This document shows positions 8,821 through 59,290 of a stretch of DNA of 64,000 nucleotides, in pieces (positions within the stretch are counted from its first letter, which is position 1; each line of letters begins with the position of its first letter). The notes beneath the pieces are model-generated. The model worked only from the letters and a program-made list of their open reading frames with translations, did no database searches and was not told the DNA's origin. Source of the stretch: Lamellibrachia satsuma (lineage: Eukaryota; Annelida; Polychaeta; Sabellida; Siboglinidae); NCBI GenBank assembly GCA_033239005.1, contig BSQZ01000033.1:3497501-3561500 (forward strand), in the 5' to 3' direction. Both the position numbers and the translations under genes were made by a program.

Positions 8821-10426
8821 ACCTTGACCCCATTTAATATTTCCCAATCCACCAAGGCAATATCGTACTTGACCCCATCTAATATCTCCCAATCCACCAT
8901 GACAACATCCTACTTGACCCACATCTAATATCTCCCAATCCACCATGACAACATCCTACTTGACCCACATCTAACATCTCCCAATCCACCATGACAACAT
9001 CATACTTGACCCACATCTAATATCTCCCAATCCACCATGGCAACATCCTACTTGACCCACATCTAACATCTCCCAATCCACCATGGCAACATCCTACTTC
9101 ACCCCATCTAACATCTCCCAATCCACCATGACAACATCCTACTTGACCCCATCTAATATCTCCCAATCCACCATGACAACATCCTACTTGACCCACATCT
9201 AATATCTCCCAATCCACCATGGCAACATCCTACTTGACCCACATCTAACATCTCCCAATCCACCATGGCAACATCCTACTTGACCCACATCTAACATCTC
9301 CCAATCCACCATGACAACATCCTACTTGACCCAATTTTAATATCTCCCAATCCACCATGGCAACATCCTACTTGACCCACATCTAACATCTCCCAATCCA
9401 CCATGACAACATCCTACTTGACCCACATCTAATATCTCCCAATCCACCATGACAACATCCTACTTGACCCACATCTAACATCTCCCAATCCACCATGACA
9501 ACATCATACTTGACCCACATCTAATATCTCCCAATCCACCATGGCAACATCCTACTTGACCCCATCTAACATCTCCCAATCCACCATGGCAACATCCTAC
9601 TTGACCCCATCTAATATCTCCCAATCCACCATGGCAACATCCTACTTGACCCCATCTAACATCTCCCAATCCACCATGGCAACATCCTACTTGACCCCAT
9701 CTAACATCTCCCAATCCACCATGGCAACATCCAACTTGACCCTCATCTAACATCTCCCAATCCACCATGGCAACATCCTTGACCCACATCTAACATCTCC
9801 CAATTCACAATGGCAACATCCTACTTGACCCCATCTAATATCTCCCAATCCACCATGACAGCATCCTACTTGACCCACATCTAATATCTCCCAATCCACC
9901 ATGGCAACATCCTACTTGACCCACATCTAACATCTCCCAATCCACCATGGCAACATCCTACTTGACCCACATCTAACATCTCCCAATCCACAATGGCAAC
10001 ATCCTACTTGACCCCATATAATATCTCCCAATCCACCATGGCAACATCCTAATTGATCCACATCTAATATCTCCCAATCCACCATGGCAACATCGTACCT
10101 GAACCCATCTAATATCTCCCCGTCCACCATGGCAACATCCTACTTGAACCCATCTAATATCTCCCAATCCACTATGGCAACATCCTACTTGACCCCATCC
10201 ATTTCACCCAAATCACCATGACAACATCCTACTTGACCCCATCCATTTCACCCAAATCACCATGACAACATCCTACTTGACCCCATCCAATTTTACCCAA
10301 TCCACCATGACAACATCCTACTTGACCCCATCCAATTTCACCCAATCCACCATGATAACATCCTACTTGACCCCATCCAGTTTCACCCAATCCACCATGA
10401 CAACATCCTACTTGACCCCATCCAAA
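8821..10426. repeat. Minisatellite, 45/46-bp unit, about 35 copies
   Basis: Units carry CTCCCAATCCACCATGGCAA and CATCCTACTTGACCC(A)CATCTAA. The 45-bp and 46-bp versions alternate and the last five or six copies switch to a CATTTCACCCAA variant. Runs of 45-bp units remain open on both strands and are not genes. The array ends directly in a CR1 ORF2 fragment. Confidence 0.95.
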
Positions 10427-11851: not shown

Positions 11852-20699
<8,848 letters not shown>

Positions 20700-41136: not shown

Positions 41137-41199
41137 CAATGGATGTTGTGGGCCTGGAGAAACTGTTGAAGATTTATCCAGATGCTGTCAGCATTGCAG
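41137..41199 (+). CDS. ZDHHC13/17: ZDHHC-like exon A (first recovered)
   Basis: Acceptor-like CTGCTTACTAG, then CA and ATG (41139). Encodes MDVVGLEKLLKIYPDAVSIA, an ankyrin helix. Donor GCAG|GTCAGT, phase 1. An upstream coding exon is likely, since the acceptor precedes the ATG by 2 nt. Confidence 0.7.
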
Positions 41200-42450
41200 G
41201 TCAGTTCCCAGTTGGTCATAGTTGTATCATCACTGCATTGGCCAGTGACATGAGCCTTGCTTAAGTGCTTGATGAAGTTTGTTGCTATCAGATATTGAAA
41301 CCAGGTTTGGAATTGTTATCTAAAATGAAAATGTTCATTACATAATGCTGAGCTATGATGGTCTGCAAAGTATTTTGGCAATAATATATATATACACACA
41401 CACGCACGCACGCACGCATGCACACACACACATTTACCACATTTCAGGGATCAAGTTAGAATTAAAAGAACAATAATTACGAAAATTGTGGTGAAAATGT
41501 GATGTCAGTATTGTGGACTGTCATCTAGACTAATGACCAGATTTCACCAAAGTTTGCAGGAAATATTCAGGTGATATTCTCTCTATTAATAAATAAGTAT
41601 TTAATTCCTTTCAATATTATATTCCCAGGGTTGCAACCTAACACCGGCCTGGTGGCCAATGGCTGGTACTTTTGCAGTTGGGCCAGTTGCGCCTGAAAAT
41701 AAAAGAGCTTATTATGGCTTTTATTTAACAATCAATACATTATTTCCCAGTGCAGTATCGAGGCTGGTAGAATATCGGTTGGGCAGGTATGTTTTTTAAC
41801 TTACCAGCCCGATGGGGCTGGTGAACAGAAATGTTGGTTTTCAGCCCTTTATGTTCCTCATACAGATAACAGTGGTCTGCAGCCACTACACAGGGCTGCA
41901 ATGACAGGGAACCTAACCACAGTTCAAATCTTGCTCAACATGCATGCCGATCCCAACGCCGTGGCCAGTGCGGGCGAAACACCACTGCTGTTTGCATGCC
42001 ACCGTGCCCACCTCAAGATAATGCACTTATTGGTACAGAGCGGTGCAAACATTGATGCAGTGGACAACGCAGGCTGCGGGGCGATCCACTATGCAGTCAA
42101 TGGTGGCCAGGTGTAAGTCTTCTTCTTGCGTGTGTCATCATCACGGGTCAAATTGCTAGGATGGTCTGCTTGAGCCGCTCAGGCATAACAAATACAGATA
42201 CTTTCATTTCAAGTTAAAAACATGCACATACAACAATGCATTTCAAGTGTACATAAGTTAAAATATAAAGGATCATTTAAAAAGATATAAAGATCACCTT
42301 TGTACGCAATGAAGTGCCCTTGTCCATCTAGATCACACGTTTTATCAAATAATTTTCAATGTCATATACACGTTTTCTAAAAAACATATTCCTGCGCAAG
42401 GGGCATTAAAGTTGTCAATGTAATTGTTAACAAACATACTGATGTATCCT

Positions 42451-42520
<70 letters not shown>

Positions 42521-45500
42521 CATGAACTTTTGACATTACCACATTTATTGTTAGTTCTGATGCCTTTTGCAAATATGTTGCTCATTACTGTGATGTGGCT
42601 GGTGCTTTTTGTCTTGCTACAAAAACTAGTTATTGAAATGTGTTGTACTTGGCATGTATTGTCCTGTCGAACTGCCAGTGTTTTTTCACATGGTTACATT
42701 TGATTAGCTAGTTCTATGTAAGGACTGAGTCTTCGAACAACGGATCTCATCCCGCGTCAGTCGTGTGTCCTTTGGTGACTGTATAGGCCAAGGCACATCT
42801 GGTTCGAGATAATAATAATAAAAGTTAAGCACTTTAGATACATGCCATCATAACAATTATATTAAAAACAATACCAACAATAATAAGTCTAAAATATAGT
42901 CCGTGAAAAAACATGAAAATGTATAAATGGAATTTATTTGTTTTGCAGTATGCATTATACAAAAGTTCTCATCAGCATATCATAAAAATGTATACTGCAG
43001 CAGTGTTTTCACAGTCCTCGCTGAATCTGGCGACTGATTCCACCGATTAGCTATGGTCACTGCACAACAAAATGACGATCACAGTCTGTGAAGCTAGTTC
43101 AGACTATAGATGCAAAGATGTTGGTTAGTTGATGTTTGTGATCACTGTTCATTGTGGCAGACAGTTTGTGTGTGTCCTGGAGTCTAGTCATGTCTGTTGG
43201 TTGGTGTTCTTGTAGTGCAGCTGTTCATTATCTGAACGAAGTGTGCGGACTGTCCACACACACGCGAGACAACCGTCTGCAAACTCCACTCTTCAAAGCA
43301 TGTAACCAAGGACATGTGGACATGCTTAACTATCTGCTGCGAAAAGGGGTAGGTTCATTGCAAAAGGGGTCGGTTCATTGCAAAAGGTGTCGGTTCGTTA
43401 CAAAAGGGGTCGGTTCATTGCAAAAGGGGTCGGTTCATTGCAAAAGTGGTCGGTTCGTTATAAAAGGGGTCGGTTCATTTCAAAAGGGGTAGTTTTCTCA
43501 CAAAAGTTGCAGGTCCATTACAAAAGGAGTTGCAAAAGGGGTCGGTTCGTTACAAAAGGGGTTGGTTCATTGCAAAAGGGGTAGTTTTCTCACAAAAGTT
43601 GCAGGTTCATCGCAAAAGGGGTCAGTTCATTACAAAAGGGATTGGCTTATCGCAAAAGGGGTCGGTTTCTCGCAAAAGGGGTCGATTTCTCGCAATAGGG
43701 GTCGGTTCATTGCAAAAGGGACAGGTTCACCATGAAAAGGGTAGGCTCATTGCAAAAAGGGTAGGTTCATTGCAAGAAACATTATTATGCAATTTATTGA
43801 TATCACATACTTTGTTGCAGCGCAGTGAAGTAGATGCGGAGGATGCAGCTGGGAATACTGCAATTCACGTTACTGCAGAGAAATGTTACAGCTGGAGCTG
43901 CTGGCGCCTCCTGGAGGAGGGCGGGCTTCAACTGCTCCACAAGGCGAATAAGGACAATCTGACGCCTCTAGATGTCGCTATTAAAGCCTCAGCAACAAAG
44001 TATGACAATGCACTGAGCAGAGTTGACACATTGTATGGATGTCCCAAATGGATGTCCCGTATGCAGTTCAGATTGTTTGGAAGGATTATCATTTTGTAAA
44101 AATATCTCTTGATCAGAATATGTTTCATGTAGGTATATCTCATAGACTGATAGATGATCACTCTTGATCAGAATATGTTTGATATAGGTATATCTCATAG
44201 ACTGAAAGATGATGATTCTTGATCAGAATATGTTTGATGTAGGTAAATCTCATAGACTGATAGATGATGACTCTTGATCATACTATAAATATTTTTGGAA
44301 GTAAACATTCTTTAAACTAGAAGTGCAGGGGGGTTACCTAGAGGTGTCTCAAGCAGAACAAGAGGCCACTAGTACAGATAAACCAATATCAAATCATCCG
44401 AAAAACATCTCTGAAAAAGGTTATAGATGCGTATGTTTAAATGCAAGGAGCATAGTAAATAAGAAAAACGAATTAAACATTATGGTAGAAGATATTGACC
44501 CTCACATAATTGGTATAACTGAATCATGGGCCAACATAGATATAACAGATGCTGAATTGGGACTGACAGGATACGTAATGTTTAGGAAAGATCGAATAGG
44601 AAGAAGGGGTGGGGGAGTTATTTTATATGTTAAAGAATCTATTCAGGCTTATGAAATAAAACTAGAAAGGGAAGCAGATTGTGATGAAGCTGTTTGGTGC
44701 AAAATTGTTTCAGGAAATTCAAAATTAACTATTGGATTAGTTTACCGAAGTCCAAACATAAACGAAGAGGACAACACAAAAATAAAAACGCTATAAAGGA
44801 AGTTAGTAAAGGGGAATGTATCATAATGGGAGATTTTAACCATGGACACATACAATGGAATTCTCTAGAGAGCACAGGGATTGAGGATCAACAATTTCTA
44901 TGTTTAATCCAGGATAGCTTTCTTACTCAGCACGTACTAAAACCAACCAGGGGAGAAAATGTATTAGATATAGTTTTGTCATCACAAATAGAATCAGTGG
45001 ACAATGTAAAAATATTTGAACCATTGGGTAATAGTGACCATAATCAAATACATTTTGACATCAATGTAAAATCAGAAAGTAAAAATAAGAAAACGTACAA
45101 GAGAAACTTCCACAAAGGTAACTACAAAGATATGAGAAACTACTTAGCAAAGCTAGATTGGAATAACATGCTGATGAATAAGACCGCAATTGAATGTTGG
45201 AATATTCTAAAATATGAAATTGAGAGTATCATCGATAAATTTGTTCCCTTCCAAAAACAAGGAAAACGGTGTAGAAAGAAACACTTGTCAAAAGAGGCAA
45301 TTAGAAAAATAATGCTAAAACAAACTATGTGGAGGGTTTATAGGCGTACCAGAAAGGAAGAAGACTATGCAAAATACAAAGAGGCACTTAATGCAGCTAC
45401 AACTGAAATCAGACAATCTAAAAGAAGCTATGAGCAAAAACTGGCATGTAACATAAAAACTGACAGCAAGAGTTTTTATGCATATGTCAGGAGTAAACAA

Positions 45501-48500
45501 AACGTACAAGACAAGGTTGGACCTCTAGAAGACAGTGCTGGAAATATAATATCACGGGTTTTTAATGGCGGAAGACCTAAATGGTTACTTCAGTTCAGTG
45601 TTTACCAAAGAAGATATTAGTTCATTACCAGTTGCTGATGCTAAATTTCAGGGGGCTAAATCTGACTATTTAGGACCGTTAGTTGTAACTCCAGAATTGG
45701 TAGCTAAGAAAATAAAGGCAATGAAGGATAACAAATCACCGGGAGTGGATGGGATTCCTCCAAAATTACTAATGGAAACAGTAGATCAAATCAGTATACC
45801 GCTTGCTAGAGTATTCAACTTGTCATTAAAAGAGGGAGTTGTTCCGTTTGAATGGAAAGAAGCAAACATCATACCATTATTTAAAAAGGGTTCGAGAAAT
45901 AAGTCAGAGAATTACAGACCAGTGAGTTTAACGTCAGTGATTTGTAAATTATTAGAAAGGTTAATTAAAGACCATATGGTGGACTTCCTCGTTAAGCATA
46001 AATTATTAAATTCATCTCAACATGGATTCCTTAAAGCGAGGTCATGCTTAACAAATATGTTATGTTTTTTGGAAGAAATCACTAAGTGGATAGACGTGGG
46101 ATTGCCAGTAGATATTATCTACTTAGATTTTCAGAAAGCTTTTGACAAAGTGCCACCTCAAAGATTACTACTTAAATTAAAAGCCCATGGTATCGGGGAT
46201 AGCATAACTGACTGGATAGAACAATGGCTGACTGACAGAAGACAACGAGTTGTAGTAGATGGAGAAGTTTCAAATTGGAAATCGGTTTTGAGTGGGGCAC
46301 CTCAAGGATCAGTATTAGGACCTATATTATTCTTAATTTATATCAGTGACTTGGACGACAGTATAACAAGTAACGTACTGAAATTTGCGGATGACACAAA
46401 ACTGTTTAGAAAGGTTAATACTGATGGTGATAAACAACATTTACAAAACGATCTAGACAGATTAGTGAAATGGTCTGAGAAATGGCAGATGCTGTTCAAT
46501 TTTGGGAAATGTAAATGCCTACATACAGGACATGGGAACTTGAATGTAAACTATAAAATGGGAGATACTGTTCTGGGTACTACTGTAAAAGAAAAGGACT
46601 TAGGACTTACAATAAGCACTAATATGAAAGTTTCAGAGCAGTGTGGTATTGCAGCTTCAAAGGGTAATCAAATTCTTGGATTGATTAGAAGAAACATAAC
46701 ATACAAGGGAAAAAAGTTAATTATACATCTTTATAAAGCAATAGTTAGACCTCATTTAGAATACTGTATACAAGCATGGAGACCATATCGTAAGAAGGAT
46801 ATAGATACGCTTGAACGCATACAAAGGAGAGCAACTAAAATGATTCCAGAACTTAGAGACCTTAGTTATGAAGAACGCCTGAAAGAATGTGGTTTAACAA
46901 CTCTAGAGACAAGGAGGTTAAGAGGAGATCAGATTGAAGTTTTTAAGATATTGAATGGTTATGAAAATATTGATAGCAATATGTTTTTCTCACTCAAGAA
47001 GGATAGCAGAACTAGAGGACATGAGATAAAATTAGTAAAGGATCAATGTAGATTGGACATCAGGAAGCACTCATTCTCACAGAGGACAATAAATGAATGG
47101 AACCAATTGTCTACAGATTGTGTAACTGCTAGCAGCGTGAATATGTTTAAAAACAAGGTTGACACATATCTCAGGAGGGCGGGTTATAAGTAGGTGAACA
47201 TTGTTGGACTCTCGATAAGCCAATGGCTTCCTTGTCCACTTGCCATCTGGGCCTTTGGCTTGGATGGCAAATCTTGTTAAATCTATGAATCATGCTATGT
47301 AGATTTGTATGACTTTATACAGAATATCAAGTCAAAAATGCAGATTTCAACCTAAAAATGTGGTAAACAGGTCTAACTGAGTTCGCTCTCATAGACAAAT
47401 ATATTACTGAGGTGAGAATTGTATACCAAATTTGGGTGTAAGCCATCGAGCAGTAATTTTAGTAGAGGTCAGAAGAATATTGTAGAAAACCATGGTTTAA
47501 CCGACAAAAAGATTCTTTACAGTTAATGTTAAGCATAATGTGGAGCAGTTCAATGGAAGAGTGCTGGAATGTGGAGCATGGCAGTTCAATGGAAGAGTGC
47601 TGGAATGTTGAGCATGGCAGTTCAATGGAAGAGTGCTGGAATGTGGAGCATGGCAGTTCAATGGAAGAGTGCTGGAATGTGGAGCATGGCAGTTCAATGG
47701 AAGAGTGCTGGAATGTGGAGCATGGCAGTTCAATGGAAGAGTGCTGGAATGTGGAGCATGGCAGTTCAATGGAAGAGTGCTGGAATGTGGAGCATGGCAG
47801 TTCAATGGAAGAGTGCTGGAATGTGGAGCATGGCAGTTCAATGGAAGAGTGCTGGAATGTGGAGCATGGCAGTTCAATGGAAGAGTGCTGGAATGTGGAG
47901 CATGGCAGTTCAATGGAAGAGTGCTGGAATGTGGAGCATGGCAGTTCAATGGAAGAGTGCTGGAATGTGGAGCATGGCAGTTCAATGGAAGAGTGCTGGA
48001 ATGTCAGTCGAAACTTATATAATTTCATTCACCCCTCTTTGCGTCAACAAATGTTGCAGTTGTATGATATATGTTGAACACATTGCTTAGTAGTAATTTA
48101 CTACTGTTATTTTGGCTAACAAGATTATGTCGATGTTTCAACAGGAATAGCCAGACAGTGAAAATGCTGCGCTACTACACCTCAGTTGGGATGCGCACTG
48201 GTCATTTAACAGGACCCCGAATGATCTGGTGGTGCCACCTATTGATGCCTGCTGCTGCATACCTCGCTATTTTGATAATCATTCAGTTCACGCACCATCG
48301 AGGTCTGGTTGCTTCAGGACTGCTCATTGGCCTGATAAAGAGTATAATGTGCCACACACCACGCATGCGTTCATACTGTAGGTGGGTATGGTGAACAGAG
48401 AATAACATTTTCCACTTTGTTGTTGTCTTCAGTTAAAACAAAACAGAAATCATGGTTTTGGGCCTATGCATCTATAAGAGTTACTAAGGATAACCAGTTG

Positions 48501-51500
48501 CACCTACAATAAAACATATGATGTCAGCGGTTTACTAGGAAAATCTTGTTGAACACATAGAATCTTTATTTCATACTGTTAGATAGTCATATGTCACGAG
48601 TGCTTGTAGTCTGGCCATATTTGCTCACCAAATGACAATCTTTTTGTAAACACCTAGTGCTGTTCTTGCCAATATGATATGGCCATGCTGTTGTCATCTA
48701 AACTCAACTTCTGCAACACATTTTGCCTTTGTGTGCTAACCTTTTCCTGTTCTGACTTAGCAGCTAGCTTGATTGAGAGTTTACGTTGCTTCTGATGGCT
48801 CTTCTATTTTGGTCAAAGGGACTTAATGTCCCACCATAAGTTGATTTCTTAGAACTGTCAGGCACTTATTGGTCGGCCAATAAATTTTTAGACATGCCTG
48901 CTCAATTGTAGATGGCCGAATCCAGTCTTTACTGGCATGTTTGCCGCAGGACTCTTCTACACTACAACCTGTATTTACCGCGAGATATTAAAGTGTATCC
49001 TTTTTGTGTCTGTGTCTGTTTGGTTTTTAAATAATTGTGTACATCAAGTTTTATAATTAATATTTAGTTTGATTGGAAGATCTTTTATTCATATGTATGG
49101 AACAATTCTACACTTTGTTTAACTGCATGGTTATAGGATTGTAAAATAATATAGTAAGAGCAAAACTGTCAACTTATGCCAATGCAGCTAACAATTAACA
49201 TCACTATGTTACCACTGTTCTCATTTCTATGTCTGTTGTTGTTGTTAGACAGTATTAAAACCATATTCGCCTTCCCCAAACAGTTGTCTTGAACAATATC
49301 CTTACATGCCTTGAAATGCTGTTAAGAATACGTAGAAGATTGTTCAGACATGCAAAACCAAAATAATCTCCATGATGATATTAAGACAATATTTGCCTTT
49401 CACCACCAGTCGTCTAAAGACAATATCCCTATGTGCCTTGAAATGCTGTTGAGAATACATAGAAAATTGTTCAGACATGCAAAGCCCAAATTATCTCCAT
49501 ATAATATTTTTGTTTATCCAGAAGAAAATATTGTGTGAAAGTTTTCTTGTTGAATATTGATGGAAACGTTTGTCTTGTTATGCAATGCATGATATATAAA
49601 ACCATGTAATTGATTCCATAACCAGAGTCAGATATCTACATGGAATACCCAGTGGTCACTGCGGTGTGTGCATCTACAAACATCGCTATGCTAATAGTCT
49701 ACTACAAAATGATAACTTCGCATCCAGGTGAGACTTTTCATTTCTTTGTTGCCGTTGTATTTCTTGCTTGTCAACAAGTCAACAGTCTGGATTTTGGGGC
49801 ACAATTATGGGATATACAATAAAAATTAAAGAAATTTCTAGTGACAGGTTGTCAATCTAATTAATTATCTATAATAATCAGAATCAACCGAATAAAAGCA
49901 ACAGAGGTTTGGCCAAGGAACATTTAGAATCTGACTCAGTTTAGCGAAATGGCAATATCTGAGAATGGGTCTAAGTACCAAAGTTGTTATAATGTCGAAC
50001 CCTCAGTCAAAACGACCATGGTTTAAATCCACTTGCTGTTGTTTCAAAGCTTGGGCAGTTTCATTCCACATTGCCTCAGTTCACTGTGTAACTTACAGTG
50101 GTAGTCTGGTGCATGAACAGATAGTCTTTGTGCATTGCTTCCCAGAGAAGTTGAGTTGGTTTGGATAGAAGAGATCTGCCAGGGGTGTCTGTCAGATGAG
50201 ACATTACAACAATCTGTAAATTCCTTCTGCCTGATGTCTATGCCAGGGGGGAAGTAAAAGATCTCACACAGTGGGTAAATATTTAACTTGTCATGGACTC
50301 AAAATCTCTAGCGTCATGATCACCTAGTGTTATACATAAAGGTCTGAAGTATTTTTTAATAACTGCTTCTGAAAGCTGCAATTGTTTTTTCTCAACAACT
50401 GAAGTGGTTCGGACAAATAAAAAGAAGTAGCCTTATAGTTAATGCCAGATTTGAAGGCATGATGGACATGAGATGAAGATGAGGAACACCACAAAGAAGA
50501 TAGAGGGACGACATAAAGAAGATAGAGGGACGACATAAAGAAGATAGAGGGACGACATAAAGAAGATAGAGGGACGACATAAGGAAGATAGAGGGATGAC
50601 ATAAAGAAGATAGAGGGACGACATAAAGAAGATAGAGGGACGACATAAAGGAGTGGATGAAACCAGGGTGGAATTATCTGAACATAAAAGTGTAAGGTCG
50701 GGCTGAGTGAAAAAACATGTCAAGTTAACATGTCATTGACTCGTATATTATATTAAATAGATGACAGATGTAAAATTAATAAATAGACACATGAAATTAT
50801 CACACAATTGTTTCACCATGTGCATCAAACAACCATGTATCTATGACAATATCAGACGATGAAATTGTGATTTCTATTATGTTGCTGCAAGCATTATTTG
50901 TAGCACAATATATTAAATTTAAACCAATACAATACATATTGTATGCTGTATAGCAAACTGTATGATAGAAAATGTATCAGTATCTTATGAAACAGTGCAG
51001 TCGTAAGTTACACATGTACATACTTGTTGATTAAGAAGCCATGTTTCTGTCTGACAGGCTTGTGTAAGAGCTCCTCTGTAAATGAGAGCACTGGTCATGT
51101 GTACAACATACTTGTTGATTAAGAAGCCATGTTTCTGTCTGACAGGCTTGTGTAAGAGCTCCTCTGTAAATGAGAGCACTGGTCATGTGTACAACATACT
51201 TGTTGATTAAGAAGCCATGTTTCTGTCTGACAGGCTTGTGTAAGAGCCCCTCTGTAAACGAGAGCACTGGTCATGTGTAAAACATACTTGTTGATTAAGA
51301 AGCCATGTTTCTGTCTGACAGGCTTGTGTAAGAGCCCCTCTATAAACGAGAGCACTGGTCGTGTGTACAACATACTTGTTGATTAAGAAGCCATGTTTCT
51401 GTCTGACAGGCTTGTGTAAGAGCCCCTCTGTAAACGAGAGCACTGGTCATGTGTACAACATACTTGTTGATTAAGAAGCCATGTTTCTGTCTGACAGGCT

Positions 51501-54500
51501 TGTGTAAGAGCCCCTCTGTAAACGAGAGCACTGGTCATGTGTACAACATACTTGTTGATTAAGAAGCCATGTTTCTGTCTGACAGGCTTGTATAAGAGCC
51601 CCTCTGTAAACGAGAGCACTGGTCGTGTGTACAACATACTTGTTGATTAAGAAGCCATGTTTCTGTCTGACAGGCTTGCGTAAGAGCCCCTCTGTAAACG
51701 AGAGCACTGGTCGTGTGTACAACATACTTGTTGATTAAGAAGCCATGTTTCTGTCTGACAGGCTTGCGTAAGAGCCCCTCTGTAAACGAGGACACTGGTC
51801 GTGTGTACAACATACTTGTTGATTAAGAAGCCATGTTTCTGTCTGACAGGCTTGCATAAGAGCCCCTCTGTAAACGAGAGCACTGGTCGTGTGTACAACA
51901 TACTTGTTGATTAAGAAGCCATGTTTCTGTCTGACAGGCTTGCGTAAGAGCCCCTCTGTAAACGAGGACACTGGTCGTGTGTACAACATACTTGTTGATT
52001 AAGAAGCCATGTTTCTGTCTGACAGGCTTGCGTAAGAGCCCCTCTGTAAACGAGGACACTGGTCGTGTGTACAACATACTTGTTGATTAAGAAGCCATGT
52101 TTCTGTCTGACAGGCTTGCGTAAGAGCCCCTCTGCAAACGAGAGCACTGGTCGTGTGTACAACATACTTGTTGATTAAGAAGCCATGTTTCTGTCTGACA
52201 GGCTTGCGTAAGAGCCCCTCTGCAAACGAGAGCACTGGTCGTGTGTACAACATACTTGTTGATTAAGAAGCCATGTTTCTGTCTGACAGGCTTGCGTAAG
52301 AGCCCCTCTGCAAACGAGAGCACTGGTCGTGTGTACAACATACTTGTTGATTAAGAAGCCATGTTTCTGTCTGACAGGCTTGCGTAAGAGCCCCTCTGCA
52401 AAGCGAGAGCACTGGTCGTGTGTACAACATACTTGTTGATTAAGAAGCCATGTTTCTGTCTGACAGGCTTGCGTAAGAGCCCCTCTGCAAAGCGAGAGCA
52501 CTGGTCGTGTGTACAACATACTTGTTGATTAAGAAGCCATGTTTCTGTCTGACAGGCTTGCGTAAGAGCCCCTCTGCAAACGAGAGCACTGGTCGTGTGT
52601 ACAACATACTTGTTGATTAAGAAGCCATGTTTCTGTCTGACAGGCTTGCGTAAGAGCCCCTCTGCAAACGAGAGCACTGGTCGTGTGTACAACATACTTG
52701 TTGATTAAGAAGCCATGTTTCTGTCTGACAGGCTTGCGTAAGAGCCCCTCTGCAAACGAGAGCACTGGTCGTGTGTACAACATACTTGTTGATTAAGAAG
52801 CCATGTTTCTGTCTGACAGGCTTGCGTAAGAGCCCCTCTGCAAGCGAGAGCACTGGTCGTGTGTACAACATACTTGTTGATTAAGAAGCCATGTTTCTGT
52901 CTGACAGGCTTGCGTAAGAGCCCTCTGCAAGCGAGAGCACTGGTCGTGTGTACAACATACTTGTTGATTAAGAAGCCATGTTTCTGTCTGACAGGCTTGC
53001 GTAAGAGCCCCTCTGCAAGCGAGAGCACTGGTCGTGTGTACAACATACTTGTTGATTAAGAAGCCATGTTTCTGTCTGACAGGCTTGCGTAAGAGCCCCT
53101 CTGCAAGCGAGAGCACTGGTCGTGTGTACAACATACTTGTTGATTAAGAAGCCATGTTTCTGTCTGACAGGCTTGCGTAAGAGCCCCTCTGCAAAGCGAG
53201 AGCACTGGTCGTGTGTACAACATACTTGTTGATTAAGAAGCCATGTTTCTGTCTGACAGGCTTGCGTAAGAGCCCCTCTGCAAGCGAGAGCACTGGTCGT
53301 GTGTACAACATACTTGTTGATTAAGAAGCCATGTTTCTGTCTGACAGGCTTGCGTAAGAGCCCCTCTGCAAAGCGAGAGCACTGGTCGTGTGTACAACAT
53401 ACTTGTTGATTAAGAAGCCATGTTTCTGTCTGACAGGCTTGCGTAAGAGCCCCTCTGCAAGCGAGAGCACTGGTCGTGTGTACAACATACTTGTTGATTA
53501 AGAAGCCATGTTTCTGTCTGACAGGCTTGCGTAAGAGCCCCTCTGCAAACGAGAGCACTGGTCGTGTGTACAACATACTTGTTGATTAAGAAGCCATGTT
53601 TCTGTCTGACAGGCTTGCGTAAGAGCCCCTCTGCAAACGAGAGCACTGGTCGTGTGTACAACATACTTGTTGATTAAGAAGCCATGTTTCTGTCTGACAG
53701 GCTTGCGTAAGAGCCCCTCTGCAAACGAGAGCACTGGTCGTGTGTACAACATACTTGTTGATTAAGAAGCCATGTTTCTGTCTGACAGGCTTGCGTAAGA
53801 GCCCCTCTGCAAACGAGAGCACTGGTCGTGTGTACAACATACTTGTTGATTGAGAAGCCATGTTTCTGTCTGACAGGCTTGCGTAAGAGCCCCTCTGCAA
53901 AGCGAGAGCACTGGTCGTGTGTACAACATACTTGTTGATTGAGAAGCCATGTTTCTGTCTGACAGGCTTGCGTAAGAGCCCCTCTGCAAGCGAGAGCACT
54001 GGTCGTGTGTACAACATACTTGTTGATTGAGAAGCCATGTTTCTGTCTGACAGGCTTGCGTAAGAGCCCCTCTGCAAACGAGAGCACTGGTCGTGTGTAC
54101 AACATACTTGTTGATTGAGAAGCCATGTTTCTGTCTGACAGGCTTGCGTAAGAGCCCTCTGCAAGCGAGAGCACTGGTCGTGTGTACAACATACTTGTTG
54201 ATTGAGAAGCCATGTTTCTGTCTGACAGCCTTGCGTAAGAGCCCCTCTGCAAACGAGAGCACTGGTCGTGTGTACAACATACTTGTTGATTGAGAAGCCA
54301 TGTTTCTGTCTGACAGGCTTGCGTAAGAGCCCCTCTGCAAACGAGAGCACTGGTCGTGTGTACAACATACTTGTTGATTGAGAAGCCATGTTTCTGTCTG
54401 ACAGGCTTGCGTAAGAGCCCCTCTGCAAACGAGAGCACTGGTCGTGTGTACAACATACTTGTTGATTAAGAAGCCATGTTTCTGTCTGACAGGCTTGCGT

Positions 54501-57500
54501 AAGAGCCCCTCTGCAAACGAGAGCACTGGTCGTGTGTACAACATACTTGTTGATTGAGAAGCCATGTTTCTGTCTGACAGGCTTGCGTAAGAGCCCCTCT
54601 GCAAAGCGAGAGCACTGGTCGCTGGTGTGTACAACATACTTGTTGATTGAGAAGCCATGTTTCTGTCTGACAGGCTTGCGTAAGAGCCCCTCTGCAAGCG
54701 AGAGCACTGGTCGTGTGTACAACATACTTGTTGATTGAGAAGCCATGTTTCTGTCTGACAGGCTTGCGTAAGAGCCCCTCTGCAAACGAGAGCACTGGTC
54801 GTGTGTACAACATACTTGTTGATTGAGAAGCCATGTTTCTGTCTGACAGGCTTGCGTAAGAGCCCCTCTGCAAAGCAGAGCACTGGTCGTGTGTACAACA
54901 TACTTGTTGATTGAGAAGCCATGTTTCTGTCTGACAGGCTTGCGTAAGAGCCCCTCTGCAAAGCGAGAGCACTGGTCGTGTGTACAACATACTTGTTGAT
55001 TGAGAAGCCATGTTTCTGTCTGACAGGCTTGCGTAAGAGCCCTCTGCAAAGCGAGAGCACTGGTCGTGTGTACAACATACTTGTTGATTGAGAAGCCATG
55101 TTTCTGTCTGACAGGCTTGCGTAAGAGCCCCTCTGCAAACGAGAGCACTGGTCGTGTGTACAACATACTTGTTGATTGAGAAGCCATGTTTCTGTCTGAC
55201 AGGCTTGCGTAAGAGCCCCTCTGCAAACGAGAGCACTGGTCGTGTGTACAACATACTTGTTGATTGAGAAGCCATGTTTCTGTCTGACAGGCTTGCGTAA
55301 GAGCCCCTCTGCAAACGAGAGCACTGGTCGTGTGTACAACATACTTGTTGATTGAGAAGCCATGTTTCTGTCTGACAGGCTTGCGTAAGAGCCCCTCTGC
55401 AAACGAGAGCACTGGTCGTGTGTACAACATACTTGTTGATTGAGAAGCCATGTTTCTGTCTGACAGGCTTGCGTAAGAGCCCCTCTGCAAAGCTTGAGAG
55501 CACTGGTCGTGTGTACAACATACTTGTTGATTGAGAAGCCATGTTTCTGTCTGACAGGCTTGCGTAAGAGCCCCTCTGCAAGCGAGAGCACTGGTCGTGT
55601 GTACAACATACTTGTTGATTGAGAAGCCATGTTTCTGTCTGACAGGCTTGCGTAAGAGCACCTCTGCAAACTAGGACACTGGTCGTGTGTACAACATACT
55701 TGTTGATTGAGAAGCCATGTTTCTGTCTGACAGGCTTGCGTAAGAGCCCCTCTGCAAACGAGGTCACTGGTCGTGTGTACAACATACTTGTTGATTGAGT
55801 AGCCATGTTTCTGTCTGACAGGCTTGCGTAAGAGCCCCTCTGCAAACGAGGACACTGGTCGTGTGTACAACATACTTGTTGATTGAGAAGCCATGTTTCT
55901 GTCTGACAGGCTTGCGTAAGAGCTCCTCTGCAAGCGAGGACACTGGTCGTGTGTACAACATACTTGTTGATTGAGAAGCCATGTTTCTGTCTGACAGGCT
56001 TGCGTAAGAGCTCCTCTGCAAACGAGGACACTGGTCGTGTGTACAACATACTTGTTGATTGAGAAGCCATGTTTCTGTCTGACAGGCTTGCGTAAGAGCT
56101 CCTCTGCAAGCGAGGACACTGGTCGTGTGTACAACATACTTGTTGATTGAGAAGCCATGTTTCTGTCTGACAGGCTTGCGTAAGAGCTCCTCTGCAAACG
56201 AGGACACTGGTCGTGTGTACAACATACTTGTTGATTGAGAAGCCATGTTTCTGTCTGACAGGCTTGCGTAAGAGCTCCTCTGCAAACGAGGACACTGGTC
56301 GTGTGTACAACATACTTGTTGATTGAGAAGCCATGTTTCTGTCTGACAGGCTTGCGTAAGAGCTCCTCTGCAAACGAGGACACTGGTCGTGTGTACAACA
56401 TACTTGTTGATTGAGAAGCCATGTTTCTGTCTGACAGGCTTGCGTAAGAGCTCCTCTGCAAACGAGGACACTGGTCGTGTGTACAACATACTTGTTGATT
56501 GAGAAGCCATGTTTCTGTCTGACAGGCTTGCGTAAGAGCTCCTCTGCAAACGAGGACACTGGTCGTGTGTACAACATACTTGTTGATTGAGAAGCCATGT
56601 TTCTGTCTGACAGGCTTGCGTAAGAGCTCCTCTGCAAACGAGGACACTGGTCGTGTGTACAACATACTTGTTGATTGAGAAGCCATGTTTCTGTCTGACA
56701 GGCTTGCGTAAGAGCTCCTCTGCAAACGAGGACACTGGTCGTGTGTACAACATACTTGTTGATTAAGAAGCCATGTTTCTGTCTGACAGGCTTGCGTAAG
56801 AGCTCCTCTGCAAACGAGGACACTGGTCGTGTGTACAACATACTTGTTGATTAAGAAGCCATGTTTCTGTCTGACAGGCTTGCGTAAGAGCTCCTCTGCA
56901 AACGAGGACACTGGTCGTGTGTACAACATACTTGTTGATTAAGAAGCCATGTTTCTGTCTGACAGGCTTGCGTAAGAGCTCCTCTGCAAACGAGGACACT
57001 GGTCGTGTGTACAACATACTTGTTGATTAAGAAGCCATGTTTCTGTCTGACAGGCTTGCGTAAGAGCTCCTCTGCAAACGAGAGCACTGGTCGTGTGTAC
57101 AACATACTTGTTGATTAAGAAGCCATGTTTCTGTCTGACAGGCTTGCGTAAGAGCTCCTCTGCAAACGAGAGCACTGGTCGTGTGTACAACATACTTGTT
57201 GATTAAGAAGCCATGTTTCTGTCTGACAGGCTTGCGTAAGAGCTCCTCTGCAAACGAGAGCACTGGTCGTGTGTACAACATACTTGTTGATTAAGAAGCC
57301 ATGTTTCTGTCTGACAGGCTTGTGTAAGAGCTCCTCTGTAAACGAGAGCACTGGTCGTGTGTACAACATACTTGTTGATTAAGAAGCCATGTTTCTGTCT
57401 GACAGGCTTGTGTAAGAGCTCCTCTGCAAACGAGAGCACTGGTCATGTGTACAACATACTTGTTGATTAAGAAGCCATGTTTCTGTCTGACAGGCTTGTG

Positions 57501-58063
57501 TAAGAGCTCCTCTGCAAACGAGAGCACTGGTCATGTGTACAACATACTTGTTGATTAAGAAGCCATGTTTCTGTCTGACAGGCTTGTGTAAGAGCTCCTC
57601 TGCAAACGAGAGCACTGGTCATGTGTACAACATACTTGTTGATTAAGAAGCCATGTTTCTGTCTGACAGGCTTGTGTAAGAGCTCCTCTGCAAACGAGGA
57701 CACTGGTCATGTGTACAACATACTTGTTGATTAAGAAGCCATGTTTCTGTCTGACAGGCTTGTGTAAGAGCTCCTCTGTAAATGAGAGCACTGGTCATGT
57801 GTACAACATACTGGATGTGGCCAAAGGGAATGTGTCCACCATGGCCTTCTGTCCAGTGTGTGAGGTGAGTGGACAAGACGACACTGGCCTAAGGTGTTTT
57901 TTCTGTTACATAAATGTATTGCTACCTGTTATTGCTACCTGTTATTGCTACCTGTTATTGCTACCTGTTATTGCTACCTGTTATTGTTGTACAATATAAT
58001 TTTTTATATGTTTTCAATGAGATGTTTTGTTGTTGATTCAGCTGTTGCACAGATTTGTGTGTG

Positions 58064-58127
<64 letters not shown>

Positions 58128-58954
58128 AACAAGTGTTTCATGCACTGAGTTGTAAATTTAGATACTCAGTGAATACTTATTAGCAATTCAAGCATTGCAA
58201 TATTTCCGCAGTGGTGATTCTGAGTACATGCATGTAGGCAAACCCCACTGAAAATTGCCCCATGCTGACTGCCAGCACTAATTAACAATGTTGCATATTA
58301 GATGTTGCAATAAAGTATGTACTTTGCAGCCTGTGATAACATCAGTGGCACCTTGGGTAAGACTTGATTGACTAATGATGTTGAGTGGGATTATTTTGGA
58401 GAGTGGCATTACAAAAATATTGTGGGTGGACAAAATGATGTGAAATAAAGGGGTAATCCAAAAGGATTCATAGATAGTTTTTATTGTTGTTTCAGATCAT
58501 CATGCCAAAGTCGTCCCATCACTGCAAGCTGTGCGATGGCTGCATCTGTGAGCTGGACCACCACTGCTTGCTTATAAGCAAGTGCATTGGTCGCGGCAAC
58601 CAACGTATATTTATGCTTTTCCTCGTTATGTGCATCATTTCCATGGGGACCTTTAGCATGCTCACTGTCTGGTATCTCAGCATGGAGTTCAGTGTCTTCA
58701 TTGTACCAGCAATGGACATCGTCCAGGCAATCTTCGACTATTACACCTTCCTGTGGACTATGGTAGTAGGAAACACAATCAGCATGGGCTGGTGCATTGG
58801 AATGCTGATATCACAAGTTTGGATGATATCTAACGGCTATTTGATCGCATACAGGGCAATGCATGGCAGTAAACTGACATACAGAGAACGCATTGACAAC
58901 GTTGTGGCTTTTCTGTTGGGAGAACGTGTTAAACGGGATGTGTGCCAAGTCTGA
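41137..58954 (+). CDS. ZDHHC13/17: Ankyrin-repeat DHHC palmitoyltransferase (ZDHHC13/17-like), nine exons
   Basis: Exons 41137-41199, 41866-42112, 43216-43348, 43821-43999, 48145-48381, 48912-48994, 49632-49727, 57758-57864 and 58496-58954 join in phase to about 533 residues from the ATG at 41139. The amino half has ankyrin repeats (GLQPLHRAAMTGNLTTVQIL, NRLQTPLFKACNQGHVDMLN, AAGNTAIHVTA). Hydrophobic helices lie at about 230-253, 258-272, 291-308 and 320-338. The HPG motif (cf. DPG) is created across a splice junction. The Cys-rich zinc domain has FCPVC, HHCKLCDGC and the catalytic DHHC at 402-405, followed by two more membrane helices. Ankyrin plus DHHC is found only in ZDHHC13/17 (HIP14) enzymes, Golgi S-acyltransferases whose ankyrins recruit substrates. 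DHHC is followed by LL instead of the usual PW. The protein is about 90 residues shorter than vertebrate relatives, so an upstream exon may be missing. Confidence 0.9.
41200..41860. other. ZDHHC intron 1 (between recovered exons A and B)
   Basis: Contains a short AC/GCAC dinucleotide-type run at about 41385-41430. No gene recognised. Confidence 0.5.
41866..42112 (+). CDS. ZDHHC13/17: ZDHHC-like exon B (ankyrin repeats)
   Basis: Acceptor CCTCATACAG. Encodes DNSGLQPLHRAAMTGNLTTV, GETPLLFACHRAHLKIMHLL and GCGAIHYAVNGGQ: two to three ankyrin repeats. Donor GGT|GTAAGT, phase 2; this donor and not GTGTAA two bases earlier gives an open junction with exon C. Confidence 0.92.
42120..43210. other. 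ZDHHC intron 2
   Basis: Contains an (AT)n run at 42450-42517. No gene recognised. Confidence 0.5.
42450..42517. repeat. (AT)n microsatellite
   Basis: About 66 bp of alternating AT. Confidence 0.95.
43216..43348 (+). CDS. ZDHHC13/17: ZDHHC-like exon C (ankyrin repeat)
   Basis: Acceptor GTTCTTGTAG. Encodes AAVHYLNEVCGLSTHTRDNR then LQTPLFKACNQGHVDMLNYL and LRKG. Donor AAAAGGG|GTAGGT, phase 0. A 20-bp minisatellite starts at this donor. Confidence 0.9.
43341..43775 (+). repeat. Donor-derived minisatellite, 20-bp unit, about 21 copies
   Basis: The first unit is the exon C donor itself, GCGAAAAGGG|GTAGGTTCAT. Units that follow read GCAAAAGGGGTCGGTTCATT with variants. Most have GTCGGT or GTAGTT where the functional site has GTAGGT; a few late units again contain AAAGGGTAGG. 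The array ends about 45 bp before the exon D acceptor. Confidence 0.9.
43821..43999 (+). CDS. ZDHHC13/17: ZDHHC-like exon D (ankyrin repeats)
   Basis: Acceptor CTTTGTTGCAG. Encodes RSEVDAEDAAGNTAIHVTAE, a linker, and LTPLDVAIKASATK. Donor ACAAA|GTATGA, phase 2. Confidence 0.88.
44105..44280. repeat. Tandem repeat, about 57-bp unit, 3 copies
   Basis: Units carry CTTGATCAGAATATGTTTGA and GGTATATCTCATAGACTGA. In ZDHHC intron 4, just before the CR1 element. Confidence 0.9.
44318..47285 (+). mobile_element. Nearly full-length CR1-like non-LTR retrotransposon (ZDHHC intron 4)
   Basis: Encodes an ORF2-type protein: AP endonuclease (44.4-45.1 kb; NARSIVNKKNEL, ITESWA, RRGGGVILYV, LVYRSPN, MGDFNH, SDHNQ) followed by reverse transcriptase (45.6-46.9 kb; PGVDGIPPKLL, NYRPVSL, LDFQKAFDKVP, GAPQGSVLGPILFLIYI, LKFADDTKLF) and a carboxyl domain ending SQRTINEWNQLS. 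The frame is broken only twice, by shifts near 44790 and 45560; a stop-free 542-codon segment covers the RT. The 3' UTR ends with CTTGTTAAATC, as in the three copies inside LRRC75. Recent insertion is inferred from integrity. No ORF1 was identified. Confidence 0.93.
47541..48003. repeat. Minisatellite, 36-bp unit, about 13 copies (ZDHHC intron 4)
   Basis: Units carry AGCATGGCAGTTCAATGGAA and GAGTGCTGGAATGTGG, almost identical to each other, so expansion is recent. The 36-bp (triplet) period keeps all plus frames and two minus frames open; no gene is inferred. The array runs into a SINE-body fragment. Confidence 0.95.
48003..48045 (+). mobile_element. SINE body fragment
   Basis: GTCGAAACTTATATAATTTC then ATTCACCCCTCTTTGC corresponds to the 37.9-kb SINE segment GAAGCTTGGGCAATTTCGTT CACCCC. 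Truncated, next to the 36-bp array. Confidence 0.55.
48145..48381 (+). CDS. ZDHHC13/17: ZDHHC-like exon E (first membrane helices)
   Basis: Acceptor GATGTTTCAACAG. Encodes NSQTVKMLRYYTSVGMRTGH and a hydrophobic MIWWCHLLMPAAAYLAILII helix, then LVASGLLIGLI. Donor TGTAG|GTGGGT, phase 2, chosen because it alone fits the frame of exon F. Confidence 0.88.
48390..48905. other. ZDHHC intron 5
   Basis: No repeat or gene recognised. Confidence 0.5.
48912..48994 (+). CDS. ZDHHC13/17: ZDHHC-like exon F (membrane helix)
   Basis: Acceptor CTCAATTGTAG. Encodes WPNPVFTGMFAAGLFYTTTC and IYREILK. The donor is less certain: AAGT|GTATCC keeps phase 1 with exon G; AAA|GTGTAT is a better site but would need another small exon. 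Confidence 0.75.
49290..49500. repeat. Imperfect direct duplication of about 80 bp
   Basis: Two copies of a block with GCCTTGAAATGCTGTT and TTGTTCAGACATGCAAA, spaced by about 120 bp. In ZDHHC intron 6. Confidence 0.85.
49632..49727 (+). CDS. ZDHHC13/17: ZDHHC-like exon G (membrane helix, HPG motif)
   Basis: Acceptor CCAGAGTCAG; encodes IYMEYPVVTAVCASTNIAML and IVYYKMITSHP. Donor CCAG|GTGAGA, phase 1: the last G pairs with GC of exon H to make Gly of HPG, the position of the DPG motif. Confidence 0.88.
50020..50230 (+). mobile_element. Diverged SINE copy
   Basis: TTTCAAAGCTTGGGCAGTTT and GTCAGATGAGACATTACAA match body positions of the 37.8-kb SINE; the head retains only a weak B box (GGTTTAAATCC). 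Confidence 0.6.
50478..50655. repeat. Minisatellite, 22-bp unit, about 8 copies
   Basis: Units of GAAGATAGAGGGACGACATA AA, in ZDHHC intron 7 upstream of the 88-bp array. Confidence 0.95.
51012..57812 (+). repeat. Acceptor-derived minisatellite, 88-bp unit, about 77 copies (ZDHHC intron 7)
   Basis: Each unit is 33 nt of intron end (TGTTGATTAAGAAGCCATG, then TTTCTGTCTGACAG) followed by 55 nt equal to the start of exon H (GCTTGTGTAAGAGCTCCTCT ... TGTACAACATACT). The last unit continues into unique exon sequence at 57813. So every unit has the same 3' splice site, but only the last leads to the exon's own donor. The frame entered from exon G reads ...YNILVD and then stops (TAA, or TGA in the 53.85-56.75 kb block). 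A few units differ by 1-9 nt indels. Long minus-strand frames, up to 1055 codons, result from the periodicity. Confidence 0.97.
57758..57864 (+). CDS. ZDHHC13/17: ZDHHC-like exon H (start of Cys-rich domain)
   Basis: Acceptor TTTCTGTCTGACAG (last copy of the 88-bp unit). Encodes LCKSSSVNESTGHVYNILDV and AKGNVSTMAFCPVCE, giving the first FCxxC zinc ligands. Donor GAG|GTGAGT, phase 0. The first 55 nt are shared with the array; the last 52 nt are unique. Phase with exon G (HP-G) and with exon I (CPVCE-IIMPKSSHHC) supports this copy as the functional acceptor. Confidence 0.9.
57921..57985. repeat. Short tandem repeat, 13-bp unit
   Basis: ATTGCTACCTGTT repeated about five times, 55 bp after the exon H donor. 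Confidence 0.95.
58068..58125. repeat. (TA)n microsatellite
   Basis: About 58 bp of alternating TA in ZDHHC intron 8. Confidence 0.95.
58496..58954 (+). CDS. ZDHHC13/17: ZDHHC-like exon I (catalytic DHHC and last helices)
   Basis: Acceptor TTGTTGTTTCAG, phase 0. Encodes IIMPKSSHHCKLCDGCICEL then DHHC, SKCIGRGNQRIF, and two membrane segments (FMLFLVMCIISMGTFSML, TMVVGNTISMGWCIGMLIS). A cytosolic tail YRAMHGSKLTYRERIDN resembles the TTxE/NER region of the family. Ends KRDVCQV-TGA. The zinc ligands and the catalytic Cys are all present. Confidence 0.95.
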   Translation: MIMPKSSHHCKLCDGCICELDHHCLLISKCIGRGNQRIFMLFLVMCIISMGTFSMLTVWYLSMEFSVFIVPAMDIVQAIFDYYTFLWTMVVGNTISMGWCIGMLISQVWMISNGYLIAYRAMHGSKLTYRERIDNVVAFLLGERVKRDVCQV

Positions 58955-58961
58955 TACCTCT

Positions 58962-59290
58962 GCAGCCCAATACCTCTGCAGCCCGATACCTCTGCAGTCT
59001 GATATTTCTGTAACCCAATATTTCTAGTCTTATTTCTCTGCATCCTAATGACTGCAGCCCAATGATTCTGAAGCCCAATGACTGTAGCCCAAAGACTATG
59101 TAGCCCAATGACTCTGTGAAGACCAATGACTCTGTAGCCAAAAATTACATATAGACCGATGACTCTGTAGCCCAATGGTTATGTAGCCCAAAGACTATGT
59201 AGCCCAATGACTATGTAGCTCAATGATTATGTAGCCGAAGAACTGCCCAATAACTCTGTAGCCAAATTTCTGTAAAGCCCAATGTCTCCG
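58962..59290. repeat. Degenerate short-unit repeat (AGCCCAATGACTCTGT)
   Basis: About 16-20-bp units built on GTAGCCCAATGACT, highly variable, starting 8 bp after the ZDHHC stop codon and so probably within the 3' UTR. The first units read TGATACCTCTGCAGCCC. Confidence 0.85.

Follow-up and report, generated by a model that had tools for sequence, protein, structure and literature searches.

An 88-bp minisatellite of 77 units across a predicted 3' splice site in a Lamellibrachia satsuma DHHC gene: an outsized mirage that is probably tolerated

Introduction

Minisatellites whose repeat unit spans an exon-intron boundary have been described as 'mirages' in lancelet (amphioxus) genes, namely Adh3, the globins BflGb6 and BflGb9, troponin C and PGBD5 (PMC3087553, PMC3902484), and the mirage cases in the cited passages come from cephalochordate hosts. 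A minisatellite of this kind was found in the annelid Lamellibrachia satsuma, in a 64,000-nt stretch of contig BSQZ01000033.1 (GenBank assembly GCA_033239005.1, positions 3,497,501 to 3,561,500 of the forward strand; hereafter the window, numbered from its first letter), where 77 units of 88 bp lie across the predicted boundary between intron 7 and exon 8 of a gene model with ankyrin repeats and a DHHC domain. By the sequence features tested the array belongs to the mirage minisatellites, although it far exceeds the cited cases in unit number, and it has probably expanded to this size under passive tolerance.

For the lancelet mirages, reverse transcription polymerase chain reaction and Adh3 data were taken by the authors to suggest regular splicing, with the extra sites considered able to act as cryptic ones (PMC3087553), and splicing was also reported as normal for the further cases PGBD5 and troponin C (PMC3902484). 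The closest likeness is to the BflGb6 mirage, in which the unit likewise consists of the 3' end of an intron and the 5' part of an exon, and in which the middle units are described as homogenised with the edge excluded, as units 1, 2 and 77 are identical here and the centre differs (PMC3087553). Splice signals are retained in many, not all, BflGb6 units according to the cited description, whereas 77 of 77 units carry them here (PMC3087553). The unit number of 77 stands against 6 and 3 in the BflGb6 haplotypes and 2-7 in two sequence versions of PGBD5, and the array further differs from the lancelet mirages, as far as the cited passages describe them, in its 98% matches between units and its gradient of GC and CpG content. 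No mirage of comparable size was found in the literature searched, most subscription papers lying outside its reach. The original Adh3 paper is reportedly that of Canestro et al. 2002.

Another minisatellite at a splice site is the variable number tandem repeat (VNTR) in intron 18 of human ABCA7, which comprises about 12 to 427 copies of a 25-bp unit and includes the exon 18 donor, the site of the next unit causing a frameshift if used (PMC5954066). Retention of one unit amounted to ~2% in the measured tissues and was independent of repeat length, whereas skipping of exon 19 increased with length (PMC5954066). The ABCA7 VNTR resembles the present array in including the splice site of a flanking exon, but it is donor-side, so that a 20-bp array at 43342-43775 of the window is its closer likeness; it starts at the GT, with no exon sequence described as included in the cited passages, whereas exon sequence belongs to the 88-bp unit; and its splicing effect was shown by experiment, whereas the 20-bp and 88-bp arrays are known here from sequence. 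Splicing indifference and splicing modulation are therefore both precedented, by the lancelet mirages and by ABCA7, respectively. Internal tandem duplication of splice sites as a source of new introns has also been modelled (PMC3087553) and documented in individual cases (PMC2812944); a duplicated splice boundary creates potential introns and exons in that model as in the present array, but unlike in the documented cases the decoys here appear only as sequence.

Organization of the acceptor array

Tandem Repeats Finder (TRF) reported a period of 88, 77.1 copies, 98% matches and a score of 12328 over 51018-57812, and counting anchored on the acceptors gave 77 units, spaced by exactly 88 bp in 66 of 76 intervals and by 87-93 bp in the remaining 10. 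The estimate of the initial annotation, about 77 tandem copies of an acceptor plus the start of its exon, agrees with both counts, while its array start at 51012 is corrected to 51018, or to 51025 in the 33+55 register. This register refers to the composition of the unit, the final 33 nt of the intron and the opening 55 nt of the next coding exon, which was also borne out with an ambiguity of 7 bp: the unit junction can be placed anywhere within ACATACT because this motif is present at both ends. The array is known from one assembled allele. The features concerned are as follows.

49626..49727, + strand: exon 7, with the strong donor CAG-GTGAGA facing the array; acceptor side uncertain
51018..57812, + strand: acceptor array, 88-bp x 77 minisatellite across the intron 7/exon 8 boundary (TRF, unit alignment)
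51018..51024, + strand: ACATACT, intron-side copy of the 7-bp microhomology
57725..57757, + strand: intronic 33 nt of the last unit, with branch-point-like TTGAT, polypyrimidine tract and CAG; putative genuine 3' splice site
57758..57864, + strand: predicted exon 8, 107 nt, phase 1 in and phase 0 out, its frame joining exons 7 and 9 without a stop
57758..57812 and 57813..57864, + strand: repeated and unique parts of exon 8, followed by the donor GTGAGT
57806..57812, + strand: ACATACT, exon-side copy of the 7-bp microhomology
58496..58954, + strand: exon 9, DHHC cysteine-rich/catalytic domain and stop codon (Pfam PF01529, PDB sequence matches)

The last unit alone continues into the rest of exon 8. 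Exons 7, 8 and 9 share one frame, reading HPG, LCKSSSVNESTGHVYNILDVAKGNVSTMAFCPVCE and IIMPKSSHHCKLC, which places the start of exon 8 at 57758, directly after the CAG of the last unit, so that the unit extends across an exon-intron boundary, as predicted by frame and splice signals, and the frame is continuous with both neighbouring exons. The presumed authentic splice site is the end copy, running on into unique exon sequence (57806-57864), and the earlier proposal that only this copy is genuine stands, with unique exon at 57813-57864, the donor GTGAGT behind it and the upstream donor at 49727-GTGAGA.

Splice signals and predicted consequences of decoy use

All 77 units carry TTGAT, whose A precedes the end of the AG by 27 nt, the CAG and the identical 16-mer tract TGTTTCTGTCTGACAG, and the first exon position is G in 76 units and C in one. 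Splice sites were scored with approximate weight matrices, and percentiles refer to window sites outside the 88-bp and 20-bp arrays. The acceptor score is equal in 76 of 77 units including the true one, the differing unit being that with C for G at +1, and exceeds that of 97.8% of 3274 AGs. Both bordering donors are strong, that of exon 7 standing at 99.7% and that of exon 8 above 99.9% of 3298 GTs.

If no further splice intervenes, reading through the exon from each of the 76 non-final acceptors leads to a stop, after 20-22 residues in 71 of them and after 9, 15, 50, 50 and 52 residues in the other five (the G completing HPG counted), much as initially predicted, about 20 residues and a stop ahead of the DHHC domain. 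Column 16, in the intronic part, is either A or G, and this variation turns the usual TAA stop into TGA. The initial annotation reserved a downstream donor for the last copy alone, which could not be upheld, as GTAAGA occurs 6 nt into the exon part of 75 of the 77 units, where it would yield 94-nt pseudo-exons, and as the true donor follows acceptors 76, 75, 74 and 73 at distances of 195, 283, 371 and 459 nt, all below 500 nt and within the ordinary range of exon sizes. The GTAAGA donor is weak, with scores of 2.7-2.9 (about the 85th percentile) and T or C at -1.

On the - strand, antisense open reading frames of up to 1058 aa cover the array at 52968-56938. They are regarded as a mechanical effect, since 88 is no multiple of 3 and G at column 16 removes the single antisense stop of the consensus unit (judged by eye).

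Variation among units

Units 1, 2 and 77 do not differ in any aligned column, and from both array ends towards the centre the GC content changes stepwise from 0.42 to mostly 0.48-0.50 and the number of CpG per unit rises from 0 to 3. There are 31 distinct units, and neighbouring units are identical in 28 of 76 pairs. Among the eight commonest variable sites, 19 of 28 site pairs show all four combinations of their main letters, so that the units are either mosaics or products of recurrent mutation. A search for higher-order repeats, taken as recurring blocks of 3-12 units in which two or more unit types occur, returned a single three-unit block, which overlaps itself.

With unit 77 as the assumed ancestor and four variants changing neither way excluded, the variants present in at least 10 copies comprise eight AT>GC and one GC>AT changes, and the rarer ones one and five (Fisher p=0.011), a result held as suggestive because the cut-off was set post hoc and the copies are not independent. 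Such a pattern would be left by exchange together with GC-biased gene conversion that acted on the central units and spared the ends.

Variable columns are fewer in the intronic than in the exonic part of the unit (2 of 33 versus 13 of 55, p=0.04). Significance is lost once CpG columns are removed (8 of 49, p=0.30), and selection maintaining the decoy acceptors is not claimed on this ground.

Gene model

The remaining predicted exons lie upstream of exon 7.

41139..41199, 41866..42112, 43216..43348 and 43821..44095 (or to 43999), + strand: predicted exons 1-4, ankyrin repeats; exon 1 and the end of exon 4 uncertain
48145..48381 and 48912..48992, + strand: predicted exons 5-6, hydrophobic, membrane-like segments by eye; exon 6 donor uncertain

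Pfam matched Ank_2 on exons 1-4 (E=1.4e-34) and DHHC on exons 7-9 (E=2.4e-22), on the same strand and in that order, and exon 9 by itself is an open frame of 152 residues with a DHHC match of E=1.6e-19. The predicted order of ankyrin repeats, membrane-like segments and DHHC domain corresponds to the ZDHHC13/17 layout. Compared with solved structures, the exon 7-9 product matched eight sequences, each of them named as a DHHC palmitoyltransferase, while a 564-residue query gave 423 matches whose best 60 are led by ankyrins and designed ankyrin-repeat proteins, with no DHHC enzyme name among those 60. Viral contigs scanned with six peptide patterns taken from the exon 7-9 protein gave no match, a scan possibly not covering the genome records of the window itself.

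The joins 1-2, 2-3, 3-4, 5-6, 7-8 and 8-9 are in phase and free of stops. The simplest join of exons 6 and 7 is out of phase, and in-phase GT-AG joins require donors scoring below 0; the exon 4 donor at 44095 scores -1.7, its alternative at 43999 scoring 3.3. With the joins 4-5 and 6-7 in doubt, damage to the gene, or ankyrin and DHHC exons belonging to separate genes, is possible.

At 58556-58591, the DHHC motif continues into LLISKCIG, in place of the PWVNNCIG or PWVNNCVG of the aligned human enzymes, and catalysis may be altered or lost.

The Pfam run comprised 20 open frames of the window. Three of five frames of the gene region were matched, as were four of four retrotransposon-like frames, two of these only below the curated cut-off, and the remaining 11 of the 20 matched no Pfam family, hence no neighbouring gene is named.

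Probable passive tolerance and competing explanations

The reading that we favour, and regard as likely, is that a boundary-spanning minisatellite expanded to 77 copies and is passively tolerated. It is backed by the register and microhomology of the array, the variation among its units, the high scores of the acceptor and the exon 8 donor, the lancelet precedents and the second boundary array in the gene model. The first duplication probably arose at the two ACATACT copies, of which one immediately precedes the final 33 nt of the intron and the other ends at exon position 55, and it would have doubled an 88-bp piece with a complete-looking 3' splice site; ACATACT at both ends is what a founding duplication by microhomology or slippage would be expected to leave. 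Unequal exchange and gene conversion, probably G/C-biased to judge from the variation among units, may then have expanded and mixed the middle units, the end copies keeping one original state. By analogy with the precedents, splicing would be mostly normal, the last acceptor being preferred, as we propose, because the strong donor GTGAGT takes part in defining exon 8, and the first 76 being removed as intron; stray use of a decoy would add a short tail and a stop, leading to decay or to a protein without the DHHC domain.

Several points weigh against this reading. Normal splicing is argued from precedents, and the lancelet precedent applies by likeness. A strong donor followed by 76 equal acceptors that are transcribed before the true one would lead to capture under first-come-first-served splicing, and repeat length does alter splicing in the human ABCA7 VNTR, as reported in the cited passages (PMC5954066). 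The proposed GC bias leans on a cut-off set post hoc and on unit 77 being the ancestor, and neither the copies nor the columns are independent. Lastly, the exon 4-5 and 6-7 joins rest on weak sites, and the gene may be decaying.

The initial annotation had offered two fates for the array, a tunable truncation switch or simple tolerance, and tolerance is the better-supported half, since a lancelet globin gene has an array of this geometry, with regular splicing suggested, and since no robust sign of selection on the decoys was seen; the switch is without direct support. In such a length-set switch the 76 decoys would compete with the true acceptor, longer alleles giving more premature stops and less full-length enzyme, as the equal scores of 76 of 77 acceptors, the stops behind 76 of 76 decoys and the ability of repeat length at the ABCA7 splice site to shift splicing (PMC5954066) would allow. 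Lancelet mirages are reported to leave splicing undisturbed, however, the constraint on the decoys fades with the CpG columns, and unit retention in ABCA7 did not follow length, which acted on skipping of the next exon (PMC5954066), and we consider the switch unlikely. A full dial, in which each allele would set the share of transcripts stopping before the DHHC domain and a hypermutable minisatellite (germline, perhaps somatic) would tune the output of a lipid-modifying enzyme, appears slightly less probable again. We give as little credence as to the switch to the array being intronic baggage of an already dead gene, with splicing irrelevant: the out-of-phase exon 6-7 join, the negative score of the exon 4 donor and the LLISKCIG sequence after DHHC speak for a pseudogene, but six joins are in phase without stops and exon 9 remains open with a good DHHC match.

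Two further explanations bear on the repeat itself. The array could be a short one inflated through misassembly, as two lancelet sequence versions disagree on the PGBD5 repeat numbers (PMC3902484) and the draft genome contains an aberrant assembly of one globin mirage (PMC3087553), yet position-dependent variation, matched ends, gradients and mosaic units are unlike a simple over-expansion of one unit and make such an artefact very improbable. Stepwise removal of 82-nt mini-introns, from GTAAGA to the CAG of the next unit and leaving 6-nt micro-exons, would be akin to recursive splicing; a site 6 nt past the acceptor in 75 of 77 units preserves the frame, but its donor, low in score and with T or C at -1, is too weak, and this route was rejected as the least credible.

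The array provides a natural extreme test of 3' splice site choice, as 77 equal acceptors after one strong donor lead to differing and countable predictions under first-come-first-served splicing and under exon definition. Normal splicing would be a strong demonstration of exon definition, and the opposite outcome would reveal a hypervariable dosage switch. The array also shows what size a boundary-spanning minisatellite can attain within a gene, and it offers a route to intron gain or to dosage change via allele length.

A donor-side array and other repeats

The initial annotation mentioned neither the described class of repeats nor the donor-side array in the same gene. One gene model holds boundary arrays of both the donor and the acceptor side.

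43342..43775, + strand: 20-bp minisatellite, 22.1 copies (TRF), whose first unit holds the predicted exon 3 donor AAAGGG-GTAGGT

The first unit, AAAAGGG-GTAGGTTCATTGC, has a donor score of 7.9. Eight of the 20 later units starting with AAAAG carry GTCGGT and score lower (0.3-4.4 versus 7.9), and the last two units carry GTAGGC and GTAGGT, the final GTAGGT after AGG scoring 8.2, slightly above the first unit. Two of seven minisatellites within the gene model span a junction, and at least two did so by random placement in 5.4% of 200000 trials, the test being made on hand-picked TRF rows (period at least 10, one per array) from which two dinucleotide arrays and the arrays at or beyond the stop codon were excluded. 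Special targeting of arrays to splice junctions is not claimed, the 5.4% being borderline.

Between predicted exons 4 and 5, a non-long-terminal-repeat retrotransposon occupies 44305-47193, spread across several frames, its endonuclease and reverse transcriptase domains matching Pfam PF14529 and PF00078. The window (1-64000) is rich in minisatellites, with 64 TRF rows, some of them overlapping. Examples are a 46 bp x 35 array (8823-10422), a 66 bp x 26 array (18082-19797) and, at 12178-14300, a 38/76-bp family with the donor-like GGAAGGTGAGG in its consensus units. No genes were identified around these minisatellites among the few frames tested. A 16-bp repeat at 58953-58997 starts inside the DHHC-exon stop codon, which lies at 58952-58954, and similar repeats follow downstream.
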